This document shows, one piece after another, positions 16,234 to 33,464 of a DNA stretch of 33,464 bases. Position numbers and translations under genes: made by a program. Positions within the stretch are counted from its first letter, which is position 1. Every line of letters begins with the position of its first letter. The notes beneath the pieces are model-generated. The model ran no database searches. It had not been told where the DNA came from and saw only the letters and a program-made list of their open reading frames with translations. Origin of the DNA: a virus; IMG/VR virus record IMGVR_UViG_3300043543_000508, positions 1-33,464 of that record; one strand, given 5' to 3'.

Positions 16234-16689
16234 GTGAAGATTCCGAACGAGATTCGTGACGAGGCGAAACGAGCGGGGATTCCACTCGCTGTTCTCTCAG
16301 CGACATACCGGGAATTTCGGGAACTGGCACGAGCCGAGCGTGAGTCGGTCTGGCGGATTCGGCAGCGAGTCTGGGAGTTCTACGCATGGACCCCGCAATG
16401 TCGCGAGTTTTGGCGCCAGGGGATGCATTCCCGCTTCCGGCGCGCCTTCGAGGACGGGGACGCCACCAACATTCCCGGCTGGGACGACGTGGCGAAGTCG
16501 CTGGCGTGCGAATTTCCCGAACTCGCCGGCGAGGAAGACATCGGAGAGCGGCTGTTCGAGCTGATCCGCGAGCCGCATCAGACTATGCCGTCGAGCTACG
16601 CCACCTGGCGGGAAGCGCTCGAGTACTGTCTGGAACGGTATCCCGCCTCCGCGAACTCTGGAGTGGAGGCCGAGGCGGTCCCGTTCTGA
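16234..16689 (+). CDS. Unknown protein in rightward island
   Basis: A 151-residue protein starting with GTG at 16234; AAAGGGCGAGACA lies just before the start. No family is recognised. It is acidic, with several aromatic residues (EFYAWTPQCREFWRQGMH, TWREALEYCLERYPAS), and is probably globular and cytosolic. It is encoded opposite to the surrounding late genes and is followed 17 bases later by the ASCH-domain gene, so the two probably form one small operon. Both look like a moron-type insertion between the ABC-GNAT and terminase genes. Confidence 0.55.
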   Translation: MKIPNEIRDEAKRAGIPLAVLSATYREFRELARAERESVWRIRQRVWEFYAWTPQCREFWRQGMHSRFRRAFEDGDATNIPGWDDVAKSLACEFPELAGEEDIGERLFELIREPHQTMPSSYATWREALEYCLERYPASANSGVEAEAVPF

Positions 16690-16706
16690 CCAGGGAAATA
16701 ACAACC

Positions 16707-17099
16707 ATGCAAGCACTGACACTTCACCGGGAATGGGCCTGGCTGGTCGCGGCCGGGCACAAGCGCGTGGAGAATCGCCGCTGGTCGACCAAATACCGCG
16801 GACCGCTGGCGATTCACGCGGGACTGAAGTCTGATTCATCGGCACGAGTCCTCTGCGACCGGCTCGGGATCGCGCTGCCGGCGGAACTCCCGGGCGGCGC
16901 GCTCGTCGCCGTGGCGGAACTGGTGGACGTCGTCCCCTGGGGGACCCTCTGCGCGTTGGACTTGCGCCGCGATCCGTTCGCCGCCGGCCACTTCTGCTTC
17001 GTGCTGGAGCGGGTCCGCAGACTTCGCGAACCGGTTACGTATCGCGGTCGATGCGGGCTATTTTCGGTCCCGGATGATCTGGTCGACGACGTCTCCTGA
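16707..17099 (+). CDS. ASCH-domain protein
   Basis: A 130-residue protein, ATG at 16707. The N-terminus MQALTLHREWAWLVAAGHKR then VENRRWSTKYRGPLAIHAG (residues 1-39) is the ASCH-domain core: 'L-T-[LI]-x-x-x-W-A-x-x-I-x-x-G-x-K-x-x-E-x-R-x-W-x-T-x-Y-R-G-x-[LI]-x-I-H-A'. A second conserved part, GGALVAVAELVDV, is also present. ASCH proteins bind RNA or modified nucleosides; some are amidohydrolases of modified cytidine. The phage role is unknown. The gene is convergent with, and overlaps by 286 bases, the reading frame of the ABC-GNAT gene. Confidence 0.8.
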   Translation: MQALTLHREWAWLVAAGHKRVENRRWSTKYRGPLAIHAGLKSDSSARVLCDRLGIALPAELPGGALVAVAELVDVVPWGTLCALDLRRDPFAAGHFCFVLERVRRLREPVTYRGRCGLFSVPDDLVDDVS

Positions 17100-18202
17100 A
17101 CTGGGAGTCCGAACCGGCGGGCTTCGTCGACGCGCGCCGGCCCGACGTAGGTGAAACCGGCGGTGATCCGATCCACGGCGGCGTACTGGAACATCTCGCG
17201 AATATACCGCTTCGCGCTCCGGCCGACCGGGGAGGTCATTCCCGGGAGGCGATGCATCCGCCACAGGGGCGACCGGCGGCGGTGGGCGATCATCGCGGGG
17301 TTCCCGGTCGTACTGCAATACTTCTTACCAGTAGCCGCGAATAGACTCGCGACAAACTCGGCTAGCGCGTTCCCGATCCCGACGCCCTGGAAATCGGGCA
17401 GGCAGACCGTCCGGTGTCCACGCCAGTAGGTTTTTTGATTATTAACGGAATGAATCACCGACGTGAAAGCCACGGGCTGTCCACGGTAGAGGGCCGCGAA
17501 GCAGTAGGCGTTCTTGTTCAGGGTACCGGTCAAATAGTGATACCGACGGAAAAGCTGCCACGCCGAGTGATGGACGCGGACGATCGTGAGCGCGATCGGC
17601 GGTCGCCGCCTTTCCAACCTCCAATGGAACACATCCGTTTCCGGCTCGTAGGTCCAGTCGGGGTCCAACCAGTCGATGATGTCGTAGTGGCAGCTGACGG
17701 CCACGAACTGCCGATCGAGTCGGCGGATCGCCCTGGAAATCGCCGCGCTCCCGATCTGGGCGACCGTGCGGTCGACGACCGAGGTGAATTCGTCGATCAC
17801 GACCAGCGGGCGCGGCTCGGCGAGGGCCCGCGCCAGCGTCACGCGGAACTGCTCACCATTGGACAGGCAGCGGAACGGACGCAGCCAACTCGGCGGGGAA
17901 CTGAAGCCGACCGACGACAACACCCCGGTAATCTCCTTGATCGACATGTCCCGCGGGAAGGCGTCGACGATCGATTGGTGCTGCGGCCACTCGAAACCGG
18001 AAATCAGCGCGTCGCCGAAGAAGTGCCGGGCGACGGTGGATTTCCCGGAGCCGGAGCGCCCGACGATCAGGCCGATCCGCCAGGGGCGTTCTTCCAGCGG
18101 GAGGTGGACGTCCCGGACGAACTCGCTGCGCTGCGTCGGCGGAACGTCGAATAGTCCTTCGAGCTGCTGGACCCGCGGCGAACGCACCACGGGCACGGAC
18201 AT
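16814..18202 (-). CDS. ABC-type ATPase fused to GNAT (Mom-like) acyltransferase
   Basis: A 462-residue reading from ATG 18202, which shares one base with the ParB stop (TGATG). Residues 41-175 form an ABC ATPase: Walker A GRSGSGKST (48-56), signature LSNGE (113-117), Walker B LVVIDE (133-138) and H-loop His172. No transmembrane segments follow, so it is soluble. Residues ~205-325 form a GNAT acyltransferase with RRYHYLTGTLNKNAYCFAA, GQPVAFTSVIH and the cofactor loop QGVGIGNAL (272-280). The His-Tyr/Asn/GNAT pattern recalls phage Mom-type DNA acyltransferases. After residue ~369 the frame runs antisense to the ASCH gene and looks unnatural (Ser/Arg-rich). The true end may be near 17100-17060; see the findings. 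Confidence 0.75.
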   Translation of the reverse strand: MSVPVVRSPRVQQLEGLFDVPPTQRSEFVRDVHLPLEERPWRIGLIVGRSGSGKSTVARHFFGDALISGFEWPQHQSIVDAFPRDMSIKEITGVLSSVGFSSPPSWLRPFRCLSNGEQFRVTLARALAEPRPLVVIDEFTSVVDRTVAQIGSAAISRAIRRLDRQFVAVSCHYDIIDWLDPDWTYEPETDVFHWRLERRRPPIALTIVRVHHSAWQLFRRYHYLTGTLNKNAYCFAALYRGQPVAFTSVIHSVNNQKTYWRGHRTVCLPDFQGVGIGNALAEFVASLFAATGKKYCSTTGNPAMIAHRRRSPLWRMHRLPGMTSPVGRSAKRYIREMFQYAAVDRITAGFTYVGPARVDEARRFGLPVQETSSTRSSGTENSPHRPRYVTGSRSLRTRSSTKQKWPAANGSRRKSNAQRVPQGTTSTSSATATSAPPGSSAGSAIPSRSQRTRADESDFSPA

Positions 18203-18888
18203 CACGAGACGAGCGCTCGGCACGTTAGCCCCTCGGCTTCGAACCGTTCGAGCAGCTCCGTCTGGTGCTGCTCGTCGGTGCAGGTGATGACGATCTGCCA
18301 CTTCTCGATCACGGAACCTTCCGGATCAGTGTCGGAGCTCTTCCGCGCGGGTTTGCGGGCGGACTGACCGGCATCATCGTCGGCGGCCCCGACGCCGGAA
18401 GCAATGTCTGCGGCGTCGCGCGCGAGCTGGTCGAGTTCGGCGAGGAAATCGTCCCGCAGCCGAACCAGTTCGTCGTCGCCCGAGTAATCAACTTCGTCGA
18501 GGAGCGCTCGCAACTGTTCCACGTCCCATTCGGCGAGCTCCGCCGTGCGATTGTCAGCGATCGCGAAGCCGAGCGCGGTGTTGTCGTCGTGATCGACGAA
18601 CACCACGGGAAAGTGGGTGTAACGGCAGATTTCCGCGGCGGCTTGGACCGCCCCGTTCCCTGCCAGGATCCGACGGTCGGATCGGCGAACGACCGCCGGC
18701 TTACAGATCCCGTAATTCCGGAGACTCGCGGCGATCGCCGACAGGTCCCGCTCCGCGTGCTTCTTGGCGTTGCGCGGGTCGAAGACGAGCGACGCAATGG
18801 GCACGGCGAGCGGCCGGAGGGCGTCGGCGATGTAGGTCAGGTCTGGCTCTGCGCTGCTTCGTTTTGTCGAGTTTTTTCGTTTCGGCAT
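18202..18888 (-). CDS. ParB-like nuclease/CTPase-domain protein
   Basis: A 228-residue protein. ATG at 18888 is chosen because GGAG sits 8 bases before it. Residues ~28-115 match the ParB N-terminal fold: DPRNAKKHAERDLSAIAASL, RNYGICKPAVVRRSDRRILA then the 'G-N-G-A-x-x-A' loop, followed by VDHDDNTALGFAIADNRTAE and LAEWD. In phages this type is often tied to methyltransferases or other base-modifying enzymes. The C-terminal 35 residues (KWQIVITCTDEQHQTELLER...) form a small domain seen in this protein group. It is coupled by a 1-base overlap to the ABC-GNAT gene, so the two are expected to work together. Confidence 0.8.
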   Translation of the reverse strand: MPKRKNSTKRSSAEPDLTYIADALRPLAVPIASLVFDPRNAKKHAERDLSAIAASLRNYGICKPAVVRRSDRRILAGNGAVQAAAEICRYTHFPVVFVDHDDNTALGFAIADNRTAELAEWDVEQLRALLDEVDYSGDDELVRLRDDFLAELDQLARDAADIASGVGAADDDAGQSARKPARKSSDTDPEGSVIEKWQIVITCTDEQHQTELLERFEAEGLTCRALVS

Positions 18889-19011
18889 CGTCAGTCTCCG
18901 GAAGGAAGGAAGGAAGTACGTTTCACGGCGCCTTAGCAACAAAAAAACTTCGATAGGCGGAGCCGCGAACGTACGGGGGGCTCGGGGAAGGACCCCGGCG
19001 ACCTCGACACG

Positions 19012-23871: not shown

Positions 23872-24123
23872 ATGGCCACAGTCTTGTGGGATGCGAAGGT
23901 GTGCGATTCGCCTATCGTCGACCGCGTGGTCGACGACAGCGGATGGTTACATGTTGTTCATGAGTGCGGCTGCTCCCGCACGTATGGCAAGTATCAAGGA
24001 ATTGGGTGCCGGACATTGCTTTCAACAACGCTGTGTGACGCCGCTTGCTCAGTCTGTCCGGAGTGTCACAAATTGACATATCCGTGGATGGATTGCGTGT
24101 GTAGCGAGAAAGGAATCACATGA
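23872..24123 (+). CDS. Cysteine-rich small protein
   Basis: An 83-residue protein. ATG at 23872 has GGAGAAGAAA before it. It contains ten cysteines in paired spacing: a CGC-type pair near residue 33, then LCDAACSVCPECHKLTYPW and DCVC near the end. This is compatible with a two-site zinc ribbon or a similar metal-binding fold. The ATGA overlap with the next gene suggests joint expression. A nucleic-acid or host-factor binding role is plausible but not shown. The upstream 125 bases (23747-23871) hold only weak 6-base hairpins. Confidence 0.6.
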   Translation: MATVLWDAKVCDSPIVDRVVDDSGWLHVVHECGCSRTYGKYQGIGCRTLLSTTLCDAACSVCPECHKLTYPWMDCVCSEKGIT

Positions 24124-24434
24124 CACGAAGTCGAGACACCGTTCACGAGGCGCTCCAGGCCTTGGAGGCGGTCGTCGCCGACCGCCGCCTCTCGACGCGG
24201 TCCCGCGCCCTGTGGCGGAAGGTGCTGATCGAGGTCCGCCGCCTGGCGGGGGTCCGGCTCGTCCGCGGCCGACCCGTCTGGGTCGATTATCGCCAGGTGT
24301 ACGCCCTGGCCCAGGCCGGGCATGGGACCCGCGAGATCGCCGAGCGGCTGGGGTGCAGCAGCGAGACCGTCCGCCGCGCCCTCCGCCGCGTCCAGGCGTG
24401 CCCCACGCCCCCCGCCCGCTCCGACAGGCCCTGA
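24120..24434 (+). CDS. Helix-turn-helix protein
   Basis: A 104-residue basic protein, ATG at 24120 (ATGA overlap). Residues ~57-90 form a clear helix-turn-helix: YRQVYALAQAGHGTREIAER then LGCSSETVRRALRR, like the DNA-binding ends of resolvases or sigma region 4. The N-terminal half (residues 1-50) is helical and Arg-rich. It is probably a transcriptional regulator or small DNA-binding protein. It ends four bases before the convergent stop of the leftward early operon, so its 3' end may overlap that operon's terminator. Confidence 0.65.
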   Translation: MTRSRDTVHEALQALEAVVADRRLSTRSRALWRKVLIEVRRLAGVRLVRGRPVWVDYRQVYALAQAGHGTREIAERLGCSSETVRRALRRVQACPTPPARSDRP

Positions 24435-24437
24435 CCG

Positions 24438-25031
24438 TCACCGCCGCCGACCCGGCTGCCGCGGCTCCCGCAGGCACCGCGGCAACTCCTCCGGCGGCCA
24501 GGCCGCGGCCGAAATCGCCGCCAGCAGCGCTGGCCGCCCGCCGGCGGCGTCGATCGCGCAGGCCCGGGCGATCGCCCGCAGATCGTCGTCCCCGCAGACC
24601 TCGAGCAGCTCCCGCGAGGGGCGGAACTGCCGAGCCGCGTCGATCCCCAGCAGGTCGGCCAGGACCCGCAGCACAGACAGCGGAAACGGGCCGCGACTCC
24701 ACGCCTCCCGAACGATCCCTAGACAGCGCTGCTCCCACTCCGCCTCGCTCAGGGGGAGCAGCAGGGCCGGATCCAGGTCCTCGGGGAGCCCGGCCAGCCG
24801 TCGGCCGTAGCGGCTGAAGCAGAACATCGCGCAGCGGGCCACGACCGTCCGCTGCCGGCGAGTCAGCTTCCCCGCCACGGCCGGGGCCAGGGCCTGCTGA
24901 TAGGCCCGCTCCCAGTCCCGTTCGAGGCGGTAGCGGAAGTAGGGCTCGTTCCGCGGCTGACCGGACGGCCCGGCAGACGCCGCCCGCTCGGCCGCCTGCC
25001 GGGCCACCGCGGCCGAACCCCACACCCTCAC
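24438..25031 (-). CDS. Candidate helicase-loader-like protein downstream of initiator
   Basis: A 197-residue protein. GTG at 25031 overlaps the initiator stop as GTGA. It is helical and Trp/Arg-rich (FRYRLERDWERAYQQALAPA, KLTRRQRTVVARCAMFCFSR, RCLGIVREAWSRGPFPLSVL). No P-loop is visible. Lambda P and similar loaders directly follow the O-type initiator and are about 230 residues, without ATPase motifs in P. The position and overlap fit that role, but similarity to lambda P is not evident. It is the last gene of the leftward early operon. Confidence 0.5.
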   Translation of the reverse strand: MRVWGSAAVARQAAERAASAGPSGQPRNEPYFRYRLERDWERAYQQALAPAVAGKLTRRQRTVVARCAMFCFSRYGRRLAGLPEDLDPALLLPLSEAEWEQRCLGIVREAWSRGPFPLSVLRVLADLLGIDAARQFRPSRELLEVCGDDDLRAIARACAIDAAGGRPALLAAISAAAWPPEELPRCLREPRQPGRRR

Positions 25032-26122
25032 GATTCCCCGCCGGCGGGCCCCGCGCGGGCCGCGAAGGCCTCGACGAGGGCGTCCCGCACCAGCGGCACG
25101 TCCCGCCAGCGCGGGCCGCACCGCAGCACCTCCCGGACGAGCCAGGTCCCCTTGTCGCGCACGAGGTCCGCCCGCTCCGGCGGGGTGAGCTGGTCGATCT
25201 CCGCCCCGCACGCCGCGAGCTGCCGCTCCCGCGCCTGCCGCCGCTCCGCCAGCCGCTGCCGCTCGGCGGCGTCCGCGACCGCCGCCGCGGACCGGGCCGC
25301 GACCGCCGTCGCGGCCTCCTGCCGCCCCCGCCAGGCCGGATGGTCCGGCCGCGGCCACTGGTCCGCCGCGAGATGCACCGCCGACGGCGTGGTCAGCCGC
25401 CAGTAGAGCCACCCCTCGGGGTTCTGGTACCGCTCCCGGCGGACCGCGTACTCGGCCAGGAGCTCCCGGATCGCCGCGGGGGCCAGGCCGTTCCGCAGGG
25501 CCTGCTGGACGGCCTCCGCGGCCGCATGCACCCCCGCCGCCGCCACCGCCGCCACCAGGTCCGCCTCGCTGGACGCTGGTTCAGCAGCGGCAGACGGCGG
25601 CGCTGATGGTGGCGCTGACGGGGCGCTAAGAGGGGCGCTAAGAGGGCGCTCTTCCTTATATGCAGTCCACGTGGTGGACTGACAGTCCACGTGGTGGACT
25701 GACAATCCACCTGGTGGACTGACAGTCCACGTGGTGGACTGACAATCCACGTGGTGGACTGACGGTCCACCTGGTGGACTGGGTCCAGCGGTCCGTTCGG
25801 CCTGCTGCTGGCCCTCCGGGGTGCGTTCCCAGAGGGCGCCCCAGCAGATCCAGAAGGTCCGCCGGCCGTCGGGGAGCTCGTCGCAGCCGATCAGCCCCTC
25901 GTCGTGGAGCCACTTGAGCCACTTGTACGCCGCGGACCGGCTGATTTCCGCCTCCTCGGCGAGCTCGTCGATCCGCAGCGACCACGAGCGGTTCCGGCCG
26001 ATGTGGTCGTCGAGCCGCTCCAGGAGCAGCTTGGCCAGCGGCCTGCCACCGAGCCGGCAATCGCGCAGGATCGCGAGCTGCTGGGCGCGGGTGAAGTCGA
26101 GTTCGAGCTGTTGTTCTGCCAC
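25028..26122 (-). CDS. Lambda O-like replication initiator containing the origin iterons
   Basis: A 364-residue protein, ATG at 26122. Residues ~30-95 form a winged helix-turn-helix (SLRIDELAEEAEISRSAAYK, WLKWLHDEGLIGCDELPDGR). Residues 115-153 are encoded by six tandem 20-bp palindromic repeats, giving a two-copy protein repeat PPGG-x-SVHHVDCQSTTWT. An Ala/Pro/Ser linker (residues ~160-180) and a long helical C-terminal half with an Arg-rich tail follow. Lambda O has the same plan: DNA-binding N-domain, iterons in the middle of the gene, helicase-contact C-domain. It should bind the iterons and start theta replication. The next gene overlaps by 4 bases. Confidence 0.8.
   Translation of the reverse strand: MAEQQLELDFTRAQQLAILRDCRLGGRPLAKLLLERLDDHIGRNRSWSLRIDELAEEAEISRSAAYKWLKWLHDEGLIGCDELPDGRRTFWICWGALWERTPEGQQQAERTAGPSPPGGPSVHHVDCQSTTWTVSPPGGLSVHHVDCQSTTWTAYKEERPLSAPLSAPSAPPSAPPSAAAEPASSEADLVAAVAAAGVHAAAEAVQQALRNGLAPAAIRELLAEYAVRRERYQNPEGWLYWRLTTPSAVHLAADQWPRPDHPAWRGRQEAATAVAARSAAAVADAAERQRLAERRQARERQLAACGAEIDQLTPPERADLVRDKGTWLVREVLRCGPRWRDVPLVRDALVEAFAARAGPAGGES
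25619..25652. repeat. 12-bp direct repeats beside iterons
   Basis: Two copies of a GGGGCGCTAAGA unit plus a third partial copy lie next to the iteron array and encode the Ser-Ala-Pro linker of the initiator. A short TTATAT patch lies between these repeats and the iterons, the only AT-rich spot at the origin. Confidence 0.5.
25661..25780. repeat. Six tandem 20-bp palindromic iterons, probable replication origin
   Basis: Six units repeat at exactly 20-base spacing. Each has the core AGTCCAC-GTG-GTGGACT or a near copy, at 25664, 25684, 25704, 25724, 25744 and 25764. Arms are perfect or one mismatch; units 3 and 6 carry CTG centres. The unit is not a multiple of three, so the coding frame passes through it in all three phases without a stop. 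The array lies inside the initiator gene, as the lambda origin does in gene O. It is not a CRISPR array: there are no spacers. Confidence 0.85.
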
Positions 26123-26149
26123 GCGATCGATCCTCCGTGACGCTGGTGC

Positions 26150-26353
26150 TCAGGCTGTGCAGAGCGGCTGTTCCGTCATTGGCGTATCGGTCGCGGGAGT
26201 GGCGTGTCCGATGAGCTCCGTCCGCACGATATTCAGGTCTGGCGGGGCGTCGATCCCGATCCGCACCGCCTCGGGTCCGATCCGCAAAATCGTGATCTCG
26301 ATCTGGTCGCCGATTTGGACCTTTTCTCCAGCCTTCCGCGTGAGGACGAGCAT
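26150..26353 (-). CDS. csrA: CsrA, carbon-storage RNA-binding regulator
   Basis: A 67-residue protein, ATG at 26353. It matches the family from end to end: MLVLTRKAGEKVQIGDQIEI, then TILRIGPEAVRIGIDAPPDL and NIVRTELIG. The RNA-contact residues, Leu4/Arg6 in LTR and the arginine in NIVRTEL, are present. CsrA binds GGA motifs in mRNA leaders and shifts translation and stability. In a phage it could alter host or phage gene expression after infection. Its own leader carries two close GGA motifs at the ribosome site. It lies 28 bases before the initiator gene. Confidence 0.9.
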   Translation of the reverse strand: MLVLTRKAGEKVQIGDQIEITILRIGPEAVRIGIDAPPDLNIVRTELIGHATPATDTPMTEQPLCTA

Positions 26354-26370
26354 GCGATTCCTTTCCAGTA
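26354..26370 (-). promoter_or_regulatory. GGA-rich ribosome site before csrA, possible CsrA self-binding
   Basis: The leader reads ACTGGAAAGGAATCGC immediately before the csrA ATG. It holds two GGA triplets, one inside the ribosome binding site. CsrA typically represses by binding such sites, so autoregulation is plausible. Confidence 0.4.
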
Positions 26371-26381
26371 GTAAGGGGGGA

Positions 26382-26720
26382 CTAATTCCGCGGAGCCGCG
26401 GCGAACGCGGCGTTGATTTCCGCGCACATCAAGGACACGTCTCCGACGCACGCGGCGGAGAGTGAATCCAGCGCCGAGTGCGGAAACACCAGCTCGAGGT
26501 AGAGGAACTTCACGGTCGTATCGAGGGGCTCGACCGGCGGCGCGATCAGCAGGGGCGACGGATCGCACAGGACCGCGGGCAATTCCGCTCCGGGGAGTTT
26601 CAGCAACACGGGAACCAGTGTCAGCTGCTCCCGGTCCGCGACGACGGGCAGCTCGCGCGCGAGCATCGACCACAGTAGGTGCGCCGTGGTGAGCTGCCAG
26701 CGCAGAGTGATCACGTGCAT
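26382..26720 (-). CDS. Unknown protein in early operon
   Basis: A 112-residue protein, ATG at 26720, overlapping the previous gene by 10 bases. Its N-terminus (MHVITLRWQLTTAHLLWSML) is hydrophobic-aromatic, followed by LPVVADREQLTLVPVLLKLP and VKFLYLELVFPHSALDSL. It is probably a soluble globular protein. No family is recognised. Co-transcription with csrA is likely (28 bases downstream). Confidence 0.55.
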   Translation of the reverse strand: MHVITLRWQLTTAHLLWSMLARELPVVADREQLTLVPVLLKLPGAELPAVLCDPSPLLIAPPVEPLDTTVKFLYLELVFPHSALDSLSAACVGDVSLMCAEINAAFAAAPRN

Positions 26721-27055
26721 TTCGCCCCTCCCTGGTTCAGTCCGCAGAGGGCGGTGAGGTACTCGAGCTCGCGCACCGTCCGTAACGGAAGGGGCAGGAA
26801 CACGCGCTGGTCGAACTCGGCCCAGTCGGAAGTGTTCCAGAGTTCGACGACCCAGGAACCGTCCATGACAGGCAAAAGATGGATCCCCGCGGAAGCCCCC
26901 GGCGTCCGCCGCGGGGCCTTTCTCCAGAAAATTCGCGGCCCCCGGCTGGCGCTCAGCCGCCAGCCGTGCTGCAGCAGGTACTCCTCGGTGAGCGGCTGTT
27001 CGGCCGCCGGCGGGTGCGGATCGACGGGTGCGGCTGGGGTCGGTGGCGTCTCCAT
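26711..27055 (-). CDS. Unknown protein in early operon
   Basis: A 114-residue protein, ATG at 27055, 15 bases after the transglycosylase-like gene. It has a Pro-rich N-terminus (TPPTPAAPVDPHPPAAEQPL), then LTEEYLLQHGWRLSASRGPR. The later part (HLLPVMDGSWVVELWNTSDW, LPLRTVRELEYLTALCGLNQ) resembles small phage proteins with an aromatic beta-hairpin and a C-terminal helix found next to recombination or replication genes. No name can be given. Confidence 0.55.
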   Translation of the reverse strand: METPPTPAAPVDPHPPAAEQPLTEEYLLQHGWRLSASRGPRIFWRKAPRRTPGASAGIHLLPVMDGSWVVELWNTSDWAEFDQRVFLPLPLRTVRELEYLTALCGLNQGGAKCT

Positions 27056-27070
27056 CAGACGACTCCTTCT

Positions 27071-27700
27071 TCAGGGGGAGGGTGGGTGTTCAAACGCCGG
27101 GTTGGTGTAGTGCGCGATCGAGTCGAACGAGTCCAGGCTGTCGCACTGCGCCCATTCGCGGAGGTCCTCGGCGTCCCAGCCCGCGCCGAGACAGTGCACC
27201 CACTCCGCGGCATACTCCCGCTTCAGGGCGCGAAACACGGACTCAATCCCCAGCAGTTTGGCTGGCCGAGCGCGCAACCCAGGATTGCTGACGCACCACA
27301 CGCTCGGTCGGCGCCGCGCGTATTCCGCCGCTTGCACGCGGGCCAACCGTTCACTGATCTGGCCGCGCGCCGCGAATTGGATCACGGGGGCGGCGCGGCG
27401 CGACCAGCCCCGCCAATTGTCGAGGGTCCGCTGCGGATCGAGGTACACGTCGGGCGCGACGGCGACGATCGGCAGGCGGTCGCTGGCCCCGTGGCGTTTG
27501 TAGTGCGCGCCCAGCCGGCCCAGGTAGCTGACATCCATCGTCCGGCCTCGTTGCGACAACCCGAACGCTCCACTGTCCAGGATGATGAACGTCTCCCCTG
27601 GCGGCTCAGGCTCCACGGGAAAGGCATACAGCCGCGGCTTGTCCAACAGCCGGCCGCGCAGCCAGGCCGGGACCGGATACACAAACACCGCCCCGCTCAT
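27071..27700 (-). CDS. TGT/DpdA-like base transglycosylase
   Basis: A 209-residue protein. ATG at 27700 overlaps the csf3 stop as ATGA. The pattern of the tRNA-guanine transglycosylase superfamily is visible: IILDSGAFG (Asp42; the 'D-S-G-G/A-F' base-pocket motif), VAPDVYLDP (Asp84), APVIQFAARG (Gln108), VHCLGAGW (169-175, like 'H-x-L-G-V-G') and CDSLDSFDS (187-194, region of the nucleophile Asp). The tRNA-type zinc site CxCxxC is absent and the protein is far shorter than TGT (~370 residues). This points to the phage DpdA-like branch that swaps guanine for a 7-deazaguanine in DNA. No deazaguanine synthesis genes are in the window. Confidence 0.6.
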   Translation of the reverse strand: MSGAVFVYPVPAWLRGRLLDKPRLYAFPVEPEPPGETFIILDSGAFGLSQRGRTMDVSYLGRLGAHYKRHGASDRLPIVAVAPDVYLDPQRTLDNWRGWSRRAAPVIQFAARGQISERLARVQAAEYARRRPSVWCVSNPGLRARPAKLLGIESVFRALKREYAAEWVHCLGAGWDAEDLREWAQCDSLDSFDSIAHYTNPAFEHPPSP

Positions 27701-28359
27701 GGTTCGACCTCCGCACCGGGGGAAGCGCACCAGGCGATGTTGGCTCGGTCCCAGTACGGCGCGCGCCACGCCAACTGCGCCACCTCCGATGCCCGCAGCA
27801 ACAAGGTCATGGGGATCGGCCGCTGCGCCACTCCGCCTTTGAAGAGGGACCAGTCCTCCTCCTGCTCCTCGACGTCGCAGCGCAACACCTCGCCCCATCC
27901 GACCCGATGGTCATTGCCGATCGCTGGGAGGGCGGACAAGACGTCGCGGCAGAGTTCCGTGTCCCCGCGCCCATAGAAGGTCACGGTCCGCGCGGGGCGA
28001 TACGTCCAATACATCATCCGATTGCGGAAGTGGCCGGCGGCCGTGTTCACGCGATCTCCGGGAAACTGCTCCGCCTCGAACCGCTGGAAGTACGCCAGCG
28101 TCGAGCAAGGGAGCGGCGGATGAAAAAACGAAATGCTGCCGCAGGGGACGCCGCGCCACTCCGCCAGCGGTGGACGCCCGATCCGCGTGACGATTTCCCG
28201 AACGTCCACCACCTGCTTCGTCGGGAGCGTGTAATACGCGCGTCCCAGCACGCGCAACATCGACGCGTGCAGCACCAGGGAATCCAGGTGCAGCCAGGGA
28301 TGGTTGAGTGTGAGGGGAAACGCGAGGTGAAATACCACGCGAAAGGGACGGTCCGTCAT
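27697..28359 (-). CDS. csf3: Csf3-like (Cas5-type RAMP) of type IV CRISPR effector
   Basis: A 220-residue protein. ATG at 28359 overlaps the csf2 stop as ATGA. It opens with a RAMP strand (FRVVFHLAFPLTLNHPWLHL) and 'D-S-L-V-L-H-A', as in Csf3. The segment GRPPLAEWRGVPCGSISFFH has the middle Cas5-like loop. A Gly-rich stretch near the end (NDHRVGWGEVLRCDVE) is typical of the RAMP fold. Csf3 binds the crRNA 5' handle in type IV complexes. It sits between csf2 and the transglycosylase-like gene in a chain of 4-base overlaps. Similarity is to family pattern, not to one named protein. Confidence 0.75.
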   Translation of the reverse strand: MTDRPFRVVFHLAFPLTLNHPWLHLDSLVLHASMLRVLGRAYYTLPTKQVVDVREIVTRIGRPPLAEWRGVPCGSISFFHPPLPCSTLAYFQRFEAEQFPGDRVNTAAGHFRNRMMYWTYRPARTVTFYGRGDTELCRDVLSALPAIGNDHRVGWGEVLRCDVEEQEEDWSLFKGGVAQRPIPMTLLLRASEVAQLAWRAPYWDRANIAWCASPGAEVEP

Positions 28360-29246
28360 GAGGCACCCTCCGCTCGCCGGTTCCGTTTCGTCGGGCCGTC
28401 GCAGCGCCGGGACAACTCGTCCAGCGCCTCCCCGATCGCGGCCCGCTCCGCTCCGACGTAAGCCCTGTACAGTTCGGGTGTGTGCTGCGTGGCGTAGGCC
28501 AGCCGCACGCGGCCATAACCGCTCGCGCTCTTCGCGCCGATGTACGGCTGCTCCTTCCAGAGTTCGGTCACGTGCGCCAGGCACGAGGCCTCCAGATCGT
28601 CGGCCTGTTCCAGGGCGAACCGATGCGCCAGCCGCGACCCGGCGATGAGACACTCGAACTCGATCTTCATCTGGGTGGCCTGTTCCCCCTCCTCGCGTTC
28701 TTCCCGCAGATCGTCGCGCCGCGTGGCGAAGCTGATGTCGGTGAACTCCCGGCACGATTTGAGCGCCCGTTTGTCGTCGCGCAGCGAGGGCGGCAACGCA
28801 AAGGCGTTCTCGCGGCAGACCAACCGTCCATGCCCCACGCGCAGGCAACTGGGGAGCATCTGATTCCCGACCGAGGCCCCGAACAGGGCCAGCGGCGGGA
28901 CGCTGTCGCGCAGCCTGCGGCGAAACGCCAGGTCTTCCCCCTCCTCGCCGCCGGTCGACTTCTCTAAGGCGCCGCCGGAGAAGAGCGCATGGTGCAGTTT
29001 CTTGGACTGCACGTCATAGCCGATCGCCGCCAGGAGGTCGCGAAAGGCCAGGCGGCGCAGCACGCCGCGGATCGCGTTGCCGCTCAGGAACGGTACGCGG
29101 ACCGTCTCCCCCGTCTCCTCGTCGTATTGATCGATGGCCCGCAAGACCGGCGTGGAGCCGGTCTTTTCATCGCCGCCGTGGTGCAGCGGCTCCAGCAGAT
29201 CAATCACGCCGTCAATCGTCAGTACTCGATGCACTGCTCCGCGCAT
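28356..29246 (-). CDS. csf2: Csf2 (Cas7-type backbone RAMP) of type IV CRISPR effector
   Basis: A 296-residue protein. ATG at 29246 has GCGGAG upstream. The Csf2 pattern is strong: IDGVIDLLEPLHHGGDEKTG at the start (residues 11-30), VPFLSGNAIRGVLRRLAF (51-68), KLHHALFSGGALEK (83-96), VPPLALFGASVGNQML (116-131) and a late Gly-rich loop GAKSASGYGRVRL (237-249). Csf2 forms the helical backbone that coats the guide RNA. It overlaps the preceding small gene by 35 bases and csf3 by 4. This is the best supported member of the cluster. Confidence 0.88.
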   Translation of the reverse strand: MRGAVHRVLTIDGVIDLLEPLHHGGDEKTGSTPVLRAIDQYDEETGETVRVPFLSGNAIRGVLRRLAFRDLLAAIGYDVQSKKLHHALFSGGALEKSTGGEEGEDLAFRRRLRDSVPPLALFGASVGNQMLPSCLRVGHGRLVCRENAFALPPSLRDDKRALKSCREFTDISFATRRDDLREEREEGEQATQMKIEFECLIAGSRLAHRFALEQADDLEASCLAHVTELWKEQPYIGAKSASGYGRVRLAYATQHTPELYRAYVGAERAAIGEALDELSRRCDGPTKRNRRAEGAS

Positions 29247-29577
29247 GGACGCTCCGCTTTCTTTGTTTGGCCGACTGGACCGCCAACATGGCGACCGTGA
29301 TGTGCTCCTGGTGCACGTGGCGCAAGAGCGCTCGTTCGTAAGGGACGAGCGCCTCATAGAGCGCAACGGCCTCGGGAGACAGCGACTGCAACCCAAACCA
29401 GTTACACAACCGCGACACGAACCCCCCCAGCGTCGGCCTGGTCGCCGCCGCCCGCACCCGATGGTTAAACACGTCCCACGGATTGCGGCTGGTCGACATC
29501 TTTCTCCAGGGGACGGACGCGTAAATCAGCCCCAGGAGTTCAATGAACTGTGCTTCCACCTCTTTAGGGACAGGCAT
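29212..29577 (-). CDS. Cas11-position small subunit of type IV-like effector
   Basis: A 121-residue helical protein. ATG at 29577 overlaps the Csf1-like stop by 14 bases. Segments VEAQFIELLGLIYASVPWRK, RAAATRPTLGGFVSRLCNWF, and EALVPYERALLRHVHQEHIT fit an all-helical small subunit. In type IV-B loci, a Cas11 gene lies between csf1 and csf2, exactly this position. The family is inferred from position, length and helicity. It would form the inner belly of the RNP filament. Confidence 0.6.
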   Translation of the reverse strand: MPVPKEVEAQFIELLGLIYASVPWRKMSTSRNPWDVFNHRVRAAATRPTLGGFVSRLCNWFGLQSLSPEAVALYEALVPYERALLRHVHQEHITVAMLAVQSAKQRKRSVHARSSASSTDD

Positions 29578-30235
29578 GGGCCAACACCTTCCAGGCAGGG
29601 TCGTGCGCGCACGCCATCGCCGTGCGCAGTGCGGGGAGCCAGCCGCCGTGGATCGCGACCTCCACCTGCTTCGGCGTGAACCGCCCGTCGGCCAACGCCG
29701 ACCTCGGCAGACGGTAGCCCCGCAAGAACTCGATCAGCGGCGCGTAGCGCGCGACGGTGTGCGGCGTGATCGGCACCGGCGCATCGGTCCAGTCCGTGCC
29801 GACCCAGGCCAGCCTGGCGCTCCCGACCTTGTGCATCAGCGTCAGCCAGCCCTGCTTTTTTCGGCCCAGCGTCTGATACACGCAAAACGGCGCGGCCGGC
29901 GGATGCACGAGGGCGTTCCACACGGTCCGGTCCGCGGCGCTCTCACGCCGCAACTCCCCATTCCAGGCCGCCCACGAGGTGCGGCGCAGCTCGTCGCGCT
30001 TCAAGAGGGCCCAGCAGAATTCGCAGAAACAATCCCCATGCGCCAGGAGCGGCCACGCGCTGAATTTGGACGAGGGGGACTCCGCGTGCCCGGCGGAGGT
30101 GCTCCGCGCGCACAGCCGGCATCGTCCGGCATGGCGACCAAGCACGGCGTCCGGACGCAGGACGTCGTACAGCGTCAACAGTTGGTCCCCGACCGGTCGG
30201 CTCGGCGACGGAATCTCGGGGAGGGAGAGGGCCAT
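29564..30235 (-). CDS. csf1: Csf1-like zinc-finger subunit of type IV CRISPR effector
   Basis: A 223-residue protein. ATG at 30235 shares one base with the integrase stop (TGATG). A cysteine cluster, C39-x2-C42 (GRCRLCARS) and C69-x-C71-x2-C74 (DCFCEFCWAL), forms a zinc-binding region as in Csf1. The second part follows the Csf1 pattern: HPPAAPFCVYQTLGRKKQGW (111-130), then LMHKVGSARLAW. Csf1 is the type IV signature large subunit. The gene runs into the Cas11-position gene with a 14-base overlap. The link to the integrase gene is discussed in the findings. Confidence 0.75.
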   Translation of the reverse strand: MALSLPEIPSPSRPVGDQLLTLYDVLRPDAVLGRHAGRCRLCARSTSAGHAESPSSKFSAWPLLAHGDCFCEFCWALLKRDELRRTSWAAWNGELRRESAADRTVWNALVHPPAAPFCVYQTLGRKKQGWLTLMHKVGSARLAWVGTDWTDAPVPITPHTVARYAPLIEFLRGYRLPRSALADGRFTPKQVEVAIHGGWLPALRTAMACAHDPAWKVLAHACP

Positions 30236-31302
30236 CACGGCGCTCCTTTCGTCAGCGTGAGCAGCAGCCTGGCCCCGCGGCGGAACTCGACCGGATTGCG
30301 CAGGCGATACACGGCGCGGAGCACCCGCCGGGTCGGGTCCTGGTAGTGCTCGGCATTCACGCCGCGCACGCTGTGCCCGGTGAGCCAGGCCCCCACGCCC
30401 GGCAGCACGTCGTCGTGCCAGGTCGAGCAGGTCTTGCGCAGGGCCTCGAAGGGCGCGCGGACCCCGGCCCGGGCGCAGATCCGCCGCCAGGCCGCATAGA
30501 AGGCCTGGTGCTTCCGAAAGCCGGGAAAGACCCATTCGGGATCGAGACCCAAATGGTGGACGTACTCCAGGTGCGCTCTCGCCACGCGGTTCAGCGGCGG
30601 ACGCTGGACTTTCCCCGTCTTGCGGGCGCGGTAGAACACCGCGCCATACCGAAAATCGTCCCAGCGGACGTCCTCCCACCGCAGCGCGAACAGGTCCCAC
30701 GTCCGCGGCCCCGTGTTCAGGGCCAGCACCAGCGCCGTCCGCCAGAGGATCGGCAGATGCAGTCCGCTGCGGCGATGGCCACCCGTCGGCCGGCAGGCCT
30801 CGGCGGCCAGATAGAGCGCGGAGAGCTCCCGCCGCGAGAAGACGAACGGCAGCCGCTTCTGCCGCGGCAGCGGCTGCGGAAAGCCGAAGTAGGGGACCAG
30901 CCCTTTCCCCTCGGGATTGTGCCGGTCGGCCGGCCAGAGGGGCGAGATCATCGCCGCCAGCGTCCGCAGGATTTTGTTGATGGTCGCCGGCGAGCGACGG
31001 AAGCGTTTCCGCCCCCGGCGGCAGGTCTCCTCGGCCAGCCGCTGCCGGAACCGCTTCACCGATTCCCGGTCGATCCAGGCCACCGGGCCGTTCTCGGTGA
31101 GTCGCTCCCAGTGGGCCAGCGTCGACCAGTATTCGGCAAGCGTCGCCGGGCGGCGCTCGTCGAGATGCGGCAGGACGTGCACCTCGAACGCCTCCCGCAG
31201 CGTGGAGTGGGGCCCCACCCGCTCGGCCGGGTCGCCGAAGAGTTTCAGGCGGGGTGATGTCGCCGGGGCCGGCGACGACGGAAACAAGACGAGTGACGAC
31301 AT
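30235..31302 (-). CDS. int: Tyrosine integrase (site-specific recombinase)
   Basis: A 355-residue protein, ATG at 31302 (GGGGAGACCCCGC upstream). Residues ~35-145 form the SAM-like core-binding domain. The catalytic domain shows Arg200 in NTGPRTWDLFALRW, Lys228/231 in RARKTGK, Arg289 in FEALRKT (with Glu286 at the usual His position), His310 in LTGHS, and nucleophile Tyr320 in NAEHY. It integrates and excises the phage. It is the first gene of the leftward early operon and overlaps csf1 by one base. The att site could not be defined. Confidence 0.88.
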   Translation of the reverse strand: MSSLVLFPSSPAPATSPRLKLFGDPAERVGPHSTLREAFEVHVLPHLDERRPATLAEYWSTLAHWERLTENGPVAWIDRESVKRFRQRLAEETCRRGRKRFRRSPATINKILRTLAAMISPLWPADRHNPEGKGLVPYFGFPQPLPRQKRLPFVFSRRELSALYLAAEACRPTGGHRRSGLHLPILWRTALVLALNTGPRTWDLFALRWEDVRWDDFRYGAVFYRARKTGKVQRPPLNRVARAHLEYVHHLGLDPEWVFPGFRKHQAFYAAWRRICARAGVRAPFEALRKTCSTWHDDVLPGVGAWLTGHSVRGVNAEHYQDPTRRVLRAVYRLRNPVEFRRGARLLLTLTKGAP

Positions 31303-31825
31303 GCGGGGTCTCCCCTCGGCGCCCGTGCCGGTCTGCCCGGCACCGCTCCGTCATCCCCTCCGTGACGGGTAGCCATTTGAAAGTCCACGCCCGCGATGAT
31401 CGCCTCCCGCGCTGGCCAAACTTTGGAAGCAGACAGATCAACAGGTAGCACACGCGGATCGCCATGCGCACTAGACCTCGTTGACGCAGCGCGAAAGCGG
31501 AGGCCCGCCGCGGGCGGGGAAACCCGCGGCGGGCAAGTTCCCTGGCCGGGGCGACGGCTGGCAGGAACCCGCTTTCCACTCAGGGCTGGGAGCCGGCAGC
31601 AAACCCCGGAGCACGAGATCAGGGCCGGCTCGTCGATCTGTCACGATCGAGGGCCGCGGCTCCCGGCGGGCTGAGAGAAGCCCGAGAAGTCAAGGTCGCC
31701 CGATCGCGCTCACCACACCCTTGCTACTGGGTGGCAGTCCCACGACTGCGGCGGGTAGTGAATCGCGCCGGCGGGGACTTGTCAACCGGAAAACGGAAAA
31801 TCCGCGCGACCGGGCCCGCGTGCGG
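31303..31825. other. Non-coding region between lipoprotein gene and integrase
   Basis: These 523 bases hold no convincing gene; short frames on both strands have unnatural composition. The region must contain the leftward integrase-operon promoter, possibly the phage attachment site, and a strong stem-loop (31503-31534). No -35/-10 pair is clear enough to name. Confidence 0.4.
31503..31534. terminator. Perfect 12-bp stem-loop
   Basis: GCCCGCCGCGGG (31503-31514) and its exact complement CCCGCGGCGGGC (31523-31534) flank an 8-base loop. There is no T-run on either side, so it would be a poor intrinsic terminator. It could be a Rho-related, pausing or protein-binding site downstream of the leftward lipoprotein gene. 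Confidence 0.4.
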
Positions 31826-32581
31826 CTACGGTCGATCCGGGGACGACGGCGCGTCGTCCAGGTCCCGCGCCATGGCGCGGGCCGCCTCGACCGCCTCGTC
31901 GGTGGCGGGCCGCCCGTCCCACCAGACCCAAAACCGCCAGTGCAGGCGGTCGAGATCGTCGTCGGTGAGCTGGTGGCGGGCGAGAAACTCCCGCCGGCGG
32001 ACGCCCCGCAGCGCGTCCCGCTCGGCCTCCGGCACGTCCAGGTCGGAGACGGCCACGAGTTCGTTCAGCCACTCCAGATAGAGCTGCTCGTCGCGCGGAC
32101 TGGGGCGCGTGGCGGGGTCGCGCGGCTCGATGGTCAGGATCGGCGGGGGCCAGGGAGCGAGTTTCGCTCCCGCGGACCTGCCGCTGGCGCATTCCGCGAA
32201 GGCGCGTCCAGATCGGTACTCGACGCGGGAGGTCGCCAGCAGGATGCGGATCCGGCGGTGGCTGCCGTTCGGGAGCTTCCGTTCGATCTCCGCACGGTAG
32301 GCCTCGTAGGCGCGGCGGAGGAAGGCCTCGACCGGCTCCCGCTCCAGCGGGCCGTGCCAGACCAGGCGGACCTGGCGGTGCATCACGCCGATCAGCGGCG
32401 CGTCCTTGTGCAGCACCTCGAGGACTTCCACCAACGGCGCGTCCTGGCCGAGGACTTCGGACAGCGACGGCGCGGCGTCCGGCGCGTGCGGAGCGGGGTC
32501 GACTGGCGTGGTGGACGCCGGCCGACAGCCCGCGGCCGCCAGAGCGAGGAGCAGACAGGCGAGAGTGAGCGTGCGCGCCAT
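31826..32581 (-). CDS. Predicted lipoprotein of unknown function
   Basis: A 251-residue protein. ATG at 32581 is chosen because GGGAGGT lies six bases upstream. The signal MARTLTLACLLLALAAAGCR has a lipobox (AAGC; Cys19). The mature part is soluble, Trp/Arg-rich (RQVRLVWHGPLEREPVEAFL, RRRIRILLATSRVEYRSGRA), with DRLHWRFWVWWDGRP near the end. No family is recognised. It may be a host gene at the integration site or cargo of the flanking element. Its long leader (32582-32700) contains an imperfect GC hairpin (CCCGGCCCCCGGA ... TCCGGGGCCGGG). Confidence 0.65.
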   Translation of the reverse strand: MARTLTLACLLLALAAAGCRPASTTPVDPAPHAPDAAPSLSEVLGQDAPLVEVLEVLHKDAPLIGVMHRQVRLVWHGPLEREPVEAFLRRAYEAYRAEIERKLPNGSHRRIRILLATSRVEYRSGRAFAECASGRSAGAKLAPWPPPILTIEPRDPATRPSPRDEQLYLEWLNELVAVSDLDVPEAERDALRGVRRREFLARHQLTDDDLDRLHWRFWVWWDGRPATDEAVEAARAMARDLDDAPSSPDRP

Positions 32582-32620
32582 GACGAGACCTCCCGAGCTG
32601 GTGCTGCTCCAGGAAAGACG

Positions 32621-32655
32621 CCCGGCCCCCGGAGGAAAGAGTTTCCGGGGCCGGG
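32621..32655. other. GC hairpin in lipoprotein leader
   Basis: CCCGGCCCCCGGA pairs with TCCGGGGCCGGG across a short loop, with one bulged C. It lies about 40-75 bases upstream of the lipoprotein start and could be a leader regulatory fold. No riboswitch motif is recognised. Confidence 0.3.
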
Positions 32656-32752
32656 GAAAGTCAAACCACACGCTTCGGCCGTGCGGAGAAGACGAACCGC
32701 CGCCGAGGACAGCCTGCCACGAATCGCCTGCCGGCGAAATGCTGCGGCGGCC

Positions 32753-32781
32753 AGAGCACCGGATATGCAATCCGGTGCTCT
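32753..32781. repeat. Perfect 12-bp hairpin resembling a tRNA anticodon arm
   Basis: AGAGCACCGGAT and ATCCGGTGCTCT are perfect complements around ATGCA. On the leftward strand it resembles the arm and loop of a tRNA with a GCA-like anticodon, but no T-arm or acceptor follows. The sequence TCCGGTGCTCT-x-x-TCTGC recurs at the tRNA-Asp fragment 220 bases to the right. It may be tRNA debris left at a recombination site. Confidence 0.45.
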
Positions 32782-32950
32782 AATCTGCACGTCCGATCAG
32801 GTGTGTAAGCTGGCGAGAGGGTAGCAAACCGCCGGGGCGGGAGCACGATCACGACCGCCGCCGCCAATCCCCCAGCCCTGACGACTGGGGCCTCATCGCC
32901 AGTGTTTCCTCCGCGGGAGCGCGGTCCGCACACTCCCGTTTGAATTCTCA

Positions 32951-33004
<54 letters not shown>

Positions 33005-33029
33005 GTCTGCCTGGCGGCGCGGGGGCCGC

Positions 33030-33464
33030 TCAGCCTTCCCGCGGCGGCTCTTGGCCGCCATCGAGCGCGTCAACGTAGTTCACGAGATCCTGCGTGTCCT
33101 GGTGGACGTAGCGCTGGATCGTCTGTAGGCCGGCATGACCCAGGACCGCTGCCGCCGCGGCGATCCCCTTCGCGCGACACAGCCGCGTTGCCAGGTGGTG
33201 GCGTGTGCTGTACAGCACGACGCGTCGGTCGACCAGGCACTTCCGGCGCAGCTCGCGAAAGGTTTGCGACAGGCGGGAGACCGTCCATCGCCGGCCGCGG
33301 GGCGTGACGAACAGCGGGCCGGCGCGGCGGCCCGCCACGTGCGCGTCGATCACCTCCAGGCACGCCTGCGACACGGGAATCAACCGCGGACGCCGTGTCT
33401 TCCCCGCCGTCTTGTGCCTGCGGCACACGATCACGCGGCGGGTCCGATCCAGATCGGAAATTTG
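33030..33464 (-). CDS. Second tyrosine recombinase, N-terminal part outside window
   Basis: The frame is open to the right edge; only the C-terminal ~145 residues are seen. The catalytic domain is clear: a beta-hairpin with the lysine (CRRHKTAGKTRRPRLIPVS), box II YSTRHHLATRL (His/Arg), GHAGLQTIQRY with the 'G-H-x ... Y' nucleophile region, and a short C-terminal tail. It belongs to a different element from the phage integrase at 30235-31302. The gene ends 25 bases from the tRNA-Asp fragment, consistent with an integrase next to its attachment site. Confidence 0.8.
   Translation of the reverse strand, partial: QISDLDRTRRVIVCRRHKTAGKTRRPRLIPVSQACLEVIDAHVAGRRAGPLFVTPRGRRWTVSRLSQTFRELRRKCLVDRRVVLYSTRHHLATRLCRAKGIAAAAAVLGHAGLQTIQRYVHQDTQDLVNYVDALDGGQEPPREG

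Follow-up and report, generated by a model that had tools for sequence, protein, structure and literature searches.

A viral type IV-B csf operon with a TGT/DpdA-family gene in the place of cysH

We analyzed a virus record of the IMG/VR class, 33,464 bases long and possibly incomplete (the whole stretch is called the window here), and found in it a type IV-B csf operon whose cysH slot holds a gene for a 209-amino-acid (aa) protein. Sequence comparisons support membership of this protein in the TGT/DpdA family. We consider the locus a real type IV-B variant in which the hallmark accessory has been replaced by a TGT/DpdA-family enzyme.

The complete effector set csf1-cas11-csf2-csf3 lies on the minus strand (PADLOC E values 1.5e-21 to 3e-69). 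The csf1 gene (29564..30235) encodes a type IV Cas8-like protein of 223 aa with a CxxC...CxxC zinc-type motif (typeIV_Cas8, 1.5e-21; NCBIfam cas8u_csf1, 1.1e-5, under cut-off). Its end overlap with cas11, the gene of the 121-aa small subunit (29212..29577; typeIV_Cas11, 7.5e-29), is 14 bases, and cas11 in turn overlaps by 35 bases with csf2, which encodes the 296-aa Cas7 backbone (28356..29246; typeIV_Cas7, 3e-69). The start of csf3, the Cas5 gene (220 aa; 27697..28359; typeIV_Cas5, 5.5e-41), and the csf2 stop share an ATGA overlap. All NCBIfam matches to the window's csf genes were under their cut-offs, and cas11 was not matched. Upstream of csf1, on the same strand, is a tyrosine integrase gene (30235-31302); its stop overlaps the csf1 start at 30235 (TGATG), and csf1 may thus be translationally coupled to the integrase. 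At the other end, two small minus-strand ORFs matching no family follow the 209-aa ORF, one at 27055-26711, starting 15 bases past it, and one at 26720-26382.

No CRISPR array was found at the locus in a search for direct repeats in 24000-33464 and for tandem repeats in the whole window. The sole array near the csf genes is made of 20-base units and is spacerless. At 25663-25781, within the coding region of a replication-initiation-like gene (25028-26122), a palindromic 20-base unit (CAGTCCACGTGGTGGACTGA) is repeated head to tail about six times, resembling an iteron origin. Elsewhere in the window, ARAGORN predicted a tRNA-Asp(GTC) at 32951-33021; the integrase fragment beside it (33030-33434) lies at the contig end. 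Since Rfam matched nothing in the window at its gathering scores, this tRNA is unconfirmed. An ABC-ATPase/acetyltransferase-like ORF overlaps a ParB-like gene at 16814-18942 (phrog_11143, phrog_620); the opposite strand has an ORF with an ASCH domain at 16386-17099. ParB-like genes stand at or close to dpdA in several known phages.

The 209-aa ORF (27071..27700, minus strand) occupies the cysH slot, directly 3' of csf3. As the preliminary description had noted, it starts inside the csf3 stop codon, its ATG and the csf3 TGA forming a four-base overlap (ATGA, 27697-27700). The start is preceded by GGAGG, and the codon-position GC content of the ORF (0.69/0.53/0.84) resembles that of the csf genes. 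The transglycosylase motifs attributed to the protein are all in place (DSGAF at 42-46, D84, Q108, HCLGAG at 169-174 and CDSLDS at 186-191), and in alignments with DpdA/TGT proteins the columns of D42, D84, Q108, H169 and D187 or D190 are all kept. We take the D42, D84, Q108 and D187/D190 columns to be those of TGT D102, D156, Q203 and the nucleophile D280, and the H169 column to be that of the DpdA histidine. The GG loop is replaced by NPG. The tRNA TGT proper has a zinc site, CxCxxC...H; the 209-aa sequence has no CxC, and the C-terminal domain is absent as well. Because of the missing zinc site, a canonical tRNA TGT was dropped as the identity of this protein.

At E 0.1 the 209-aa protein matched nothing in Pfam, PHROGs, PADLOC or NCBIfam, and phmmer against PDB sequences gave no match at E 10. 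As the family libraries were silent, we compared the protein with an alignment of phage DpdA/TGT proteins. The first profile was built from 13 proteins of named phages (a 14th was fetched and left out). Against it, HHalign gave the single 209-aa sequence a score of 54.4 (E 9.6e-8, probability 94), whereas the best of 200 shuffled sequences reached 23.3. As a second control, we sampled 400 ORFs of 150 to 300 aa from the six-frame ORFs of other loci, not all of which are genes. Two of them scored 37 to 38 and the third best 24.3; the top two are adjacent pieces of a split TGT-like gene in locus L044 (loci carry L numbers throughout) and were taken as true positives. We also used a second profile, built from 57 DpdA proteins of viral origin: the 209-aa protein scored 54.1, the best of 150 ORFs 25.1 and the best of 60 shuffles 21.9. 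ORFs of the window and of L001 were left out of the control counts for both profiles and of the pairwise ranking described below, and the second-profile counts also leave out the L062 ORF and the two L044 pieces. The motifs thus go beyond chance, and the family membership that had been proposed from them is borne out by both profiles with their controls, the fold of the model being consistent with it.

Close relatives of the protein were not found. The 209-aa sequence alone retrieved no relative from viral contigs or from contigs of cellular genomes, tblastn in 50,697 phage records gave no match at E 0.1, and the whole records behind L199, L002, L024, L033 and L040 contained none (0/5 at E 10). 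Two plasmid matches (E 0.4 to 0.6) fell on response-regulator genes and were taken as chance. The two TGT/DpdA-like gene pieces of L044 lie next to each other at 608-1760 of a virus contig that bears csf and cysH, about 5 kb from csf1.

The predicted fold is in line with a TGT/DpdA assignment. AlphaFold2 (AF2) run on the 209-aa sequence alone gave a useless model (pLDDT 36.5), and with 58 other sequences added the model reached pLDDT 67 and pTM 0.64. The added sequences are DpdA relatives, so that the fold leans to DpdA and is not independent of the profile result. Among the 50 VIA-align matches listed, 47 belong to TGT, many of them to a single protein, and one to a DpdA. The top TGT aligned at Z 10.6 over 178 residues and the DpdA 7ui4 at Z 10.3 over 163 residues; the best non-TGT barrel listed had Z 9.9, a difference of less than 1 from the TGTs and thus a tie. 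Foldseek of the model against the PDB returned nothing at E 0.001, its top two rows being a glucanase (E 0.008) and Cap10 (E 0.03, not significant). A structure search of viral models gave 13 matches under E 0.001, of which six are named queuine/queuosine tRNA-ribosyltransferase, six are uncharacterised and one is nameless.

The slot was surveyed in other type IV-B loci. Csf2 searches yielded 40 viral loci and 14 from cellular genomes, which together with eight plasmid or phage loci made 62. In 57 of these csf3 is seen with room downstream; in five it is not. A PAPS-reductase-family ORF lies downstream of csf3 on the same strand within 2.7 kb in 55 of the 57, and in 45 of those 55 its stop is at most 900 bases from the csf3 stop. 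The cysH of L009 is divergent and upstream, and L062 has no cysH match on its 4.6-kb contig. A csf3 search found 28 loci, 26 of them on contigs already in the set; the two new ones, L199 and L217, have cysH (profile E 2.9e-107 and 1.9e-121, respectively). A further Csf2 scan gave 39 loci that were taken as the same contigs and left out of the counts. In total, csf3 has a PAPS-reductase-family ORF downstream of it in 57 of the 59 other loci whose slot can be read. These loci are not independent, several being near-identical and L046 and L047 being parts of one contig. Comparing the scores with one CasCysH and one DUF3440 protein, we found 55 of the 57 to be clearly CasCysH-like; L010 was equivocal, and L005 has solely a distant DUF3440-type ORF, 2.6 kb away. 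A cysH-like gene is therefore the usual type IV-B accessory, as had been assumed. The closest relative of the window that we found, L199 (49% identity in Csf2, 46% in Csf3), is itself cysH-bearing. In the window, a cysH profile matched no ORF of at least 50 aa at E 0.01; since the record is a 33-kb piece and maybe incomplete, the virus may have a cysH elsewhere.

Several of the surveyed loci have further genes, for candidate modifying enzymes, between csf3 and cysH. These include an N6/N4 DNA methylase (L045, 9586-10236, 8.6e-14), a SpoU-like RNA methylase (L029, 9586-10056, 8e-5, under the Pfam cut-off) and methylase-like proteins under the cut-off in L035 (8751-9398) and L027. Glycosyltransferase-like proteins occur there in L027 (9525-10813, PHROGs 3.3e-8), in L038 (6963-7721, Pfam, under the cut-off) and, by resemblance to L038, in L039 (1580-2275). 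A longer PAPS-reductase-like ORF is present close to the csf operon, besides cysH, in L011, L019, L022, L023, L024, L048, L049, L050, L055, L057 and L058, and without a cysH beside it in L005; that of L057, the one given to Pfam, matches DUF3440.

L062 is a second candidate for a replacement of cysH. This 4.6-kb contig of a Thermoprotei metagenome-assembled genome (MAG) has the order cas11 (profile E 1.5e-29), csf2 (1.3e-95), csf3 (4.1e-59), an ORF of 177 aa and csf1 (2.3e-55). The motifs of the ORF (VENMAF, VAPD, VVQEF, EWVHVLGA, ADSIDF) parallel in order those of the window protein (LDSGAF, VAPD, VIQF, EWVHCLGAG, CDSLDS); the counterpart of DSGAF is ENMAF, in which E replaces the first Asp. 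BLASTP of the two proteins gave E 5e-4 as a single comparison, and their local alignment scored 60 against 30.8 ± 5.0 for shuffles, none of 3,000 reaching 60. By pairwise score against the 209-aa protein, the L062 ORF came second among 920 ORFs of 120 to 320 aa; the one ahead of it was judged from its sequence to be a coiled coil. With the 13-protein profile the L062 ORF scored 23.9 and was not separated from the controls, since three of the 400 ORFs scored at least 23.9 (two being the L044 TGT pieces) and its own shuffles reached 25.4. With the 57-row profile it scored 30.2 (E 3e-4, probability 39), against control maxima of 25.1 and 20.8. On these comparisons, the L062 ORF is probably akin to TGT.

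Further relatives of the L062 ORF were not obtained: Pfam (E 1), PHROGs (E 0.5) and phages (E 1) gave no match, 398 genomes of its phylum held no convincing relative (the best other match, at E 0.0017, has internal stops), and an alignment of the ORF with the 209-aa protein retrieved nothing from viral contigs. Csf2 at E 0.001 had four matches in 300 genomes of this phylum, namely L062 itself and three weak, partial ones. A tree of 60 Csf2 sequences joins L062 to L043 with a support of 0.94; L043 carries cysH at the position, between csf3 and csf1, that the TGT-like ORF takes in L062. The window falls in another clade, among cysH carriers (0.94 for the large clade, 0.55 to 0.57 for its exact place). 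As the two thus stand apart among cysH carriers, an accessory that is otherwise almost constant seems to have been lost to a replacement on two separate occasions, the replacement in L062 being probable. The csf3-TGT-like arrangements found are these two, of which L062 is the more weakly supported.

We tentatively favor the reading that the window encodes a type IV-B operon in which cysH has been replaced in its slot by a minimal TGT/DpdA-family enzyme acting as an accessory of the Csf ribonucleoprotein (RNP). In the mechanism that we propose, a filament of Csf1, Csf2, Csf3 and Cas11 would bind RNA, and the enzyme would take guanine out of nucleic acid that the Csf complex holds or targets, and put in a 7-deazaguanine supplied by the host. 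The transglycosylase would then be a stand-in for CasCysH, doing the same job by a different chemistry. That the enzyme is active, acts with the RNP and does so on nucleic acid, and that CasCysH too modifies nucleic acid, we infer; if the slot serves to modify nucleic acid, a base-exchange enzyme would be a fitting replacement. CasCysH is a PP-loop protein. None of the preQ0/7-deazaguanine synthesis genes folE, queD, queE and queC was seen among the subset of window ORFs given to Pfam and PHROGs, so that the host would have to supply the base. The studied type IV-B complex binds heterogeneous RNA, and assembly of an RNA-bound Csf filament is known for Mycobacterium JS623 (both as described in PMC7937560). 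A more specific version, in which the Csf filament selects the nucleic acid and a swappable enzyme (CasCysH, or here the transglycosylase) marks it, amounting to guided deazaguanine insertion instead of cleavage, we regard as unlikely.

The main and serious rival is that the gene is an ordinary singleton phage DpdA which protects phage DNA with 7-deazaguanine and is mere cargo behind csf3, the loss of cysH being incidental and the two parts not cooperating. This is quite possible. Some phages are known to carry dpdA on its own (PMC6884629), and we found dpdA relatives in 257 phage records at E 1. No csf2 or csf3 was present within the flanks (up to 2.5 kb) of viral dpdA in any of the 80 loci kept, of 83 found. 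The preliminary description had proposed that its idea would fall if related phages carried the csf genes without the enzyme and the enzyme stood elsewhere alone. The csf relatives, which have cysH, do manage without a DpdA-like gene, and distant DpdAs occur without csf, both of which count toward refutation; on the other side, the second csf3-TGT-like arrangement, in L062, argues against pure accident. The ATGA overlap also speaks against stand-alone cargo, as does the fact that cysH has been replaced exactly in its slot, to all appearance in two Csf2 lineages independently. So does the distance of the 209-aa protein from known phage DpdAs, for which tblastn in the 50,697 phage records gave no match at E 0.1.

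Alternatively, the target of the enzyme might be a Csf protein, which it would modify or bind, a precedent being Cap10 and the deazaguanylated CD-NTase of type IV CBASS. Cap10 is described as an enzyme of the TGT family whose remodelling lets it bind a protein N terminus bearing 7-deazaguanine (PMC11996544), and it ranked second for our model in Foldseek, without significance. NDG, however, is reported to attach to an N-terminal glycine (PMC13279940), whereas none of the five operon proteins starts with Met-Gly (MALS, MPVP, MRGA, MTDR and MSGA), and no QueC-like ligase was seen in those window ORFs that were run against Pfam and PHROGs; we consider this reading improbable. A non-catalytic TGT scaffold serving as a structural or RNA-binding subunit seems very improbable. 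The protein is very short, lacks the zinc site and has NPG for the GG loop, and in its L062 relative the first Asp is an E, but the window protein keeps the catalytic Asp and DpdA His columns. That it is no TGT relative at all, the motifs being chance in GC-rich sequence or belonging to another (beta/alpha)8 protein, is in our view extremely improbable: the silence of Pfam and PHROGs, the glucanase on top in Foldseek and the non-TGT barrel close behind in VIA-align would agree with it, and the HHalign result with its shuffle and ORF controls, the collinear motifs and the viral-model matches argue against it.

The accessory reading that we favor bears on the function of type IV-B systems and of their near-universal CasCysH. 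That nature has exchanged CasCysH for an enzyme whose family has a known chemistry hints at the kind of job done in this slot, and the question of function becomes an assay: is 7-deazaguanine put into RNA or DNA by the Csf complex together with the transglycosylase? Should the answer be yes, base-modifying systems would be found among the complexes derived from CRISPR. In agreement with the earlier remark that no described system of this type was known to its author, we came across no report of a csf3-TGT-like arrangement in the open-licence papers searched, PMC10848311 among them; the main text of the 2025 classification (PMC12669027) contains neither "CysH" nor "transglycosylase."

Like Cap10 of type IV CBASS, the 209-aa protein is a TGT-family protein recruited into an immunity operon. 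The Cap10 system, however, includes a CD-NTase and a Cap9/QueC partner, neither of which was seen in the window, and its target is an N-terminal glycine, which is absent from the proteins of the window operon; the neighbors of the 209-aa ORF are csf genes, an integrase and ORFs without assigned function, a different set from that of a Cap10-type operon. The Zymomonas TGT structures match the model at Z 10.6 over 178 residues (3.5 Å, 9% identity), and the window protein has, as in TGT, a Gln at the Q203 column, but it is without the zinc site and the C-terminal domain. With the phage DpdA, the DNA preQ0 insertase, it has in common DSGAF, D84, the His, the DS motif and, as modelled, the barrel core, the best pairwise scores among the 13 being those of the actinophages Godines, Finch and Knocker. 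Phage DpdAs are longer (240 to 433 aa) and mostly have PVxH where the window protein has Gln; the GG loop that it lacks is also absent in some of them. Unlike the phage dpdA loci, the window gene has no adjacent ParB or preQ0 gene and lies in a csf operon. Finally, the locus resembles type IV-B in its csf1, cas11, csf2, csf3 order, in having no array nearby and in its place on a mobile element. It differs in that cysH was not found in the window, and in that its slot is filled by a TGT/DpdA-like gene.
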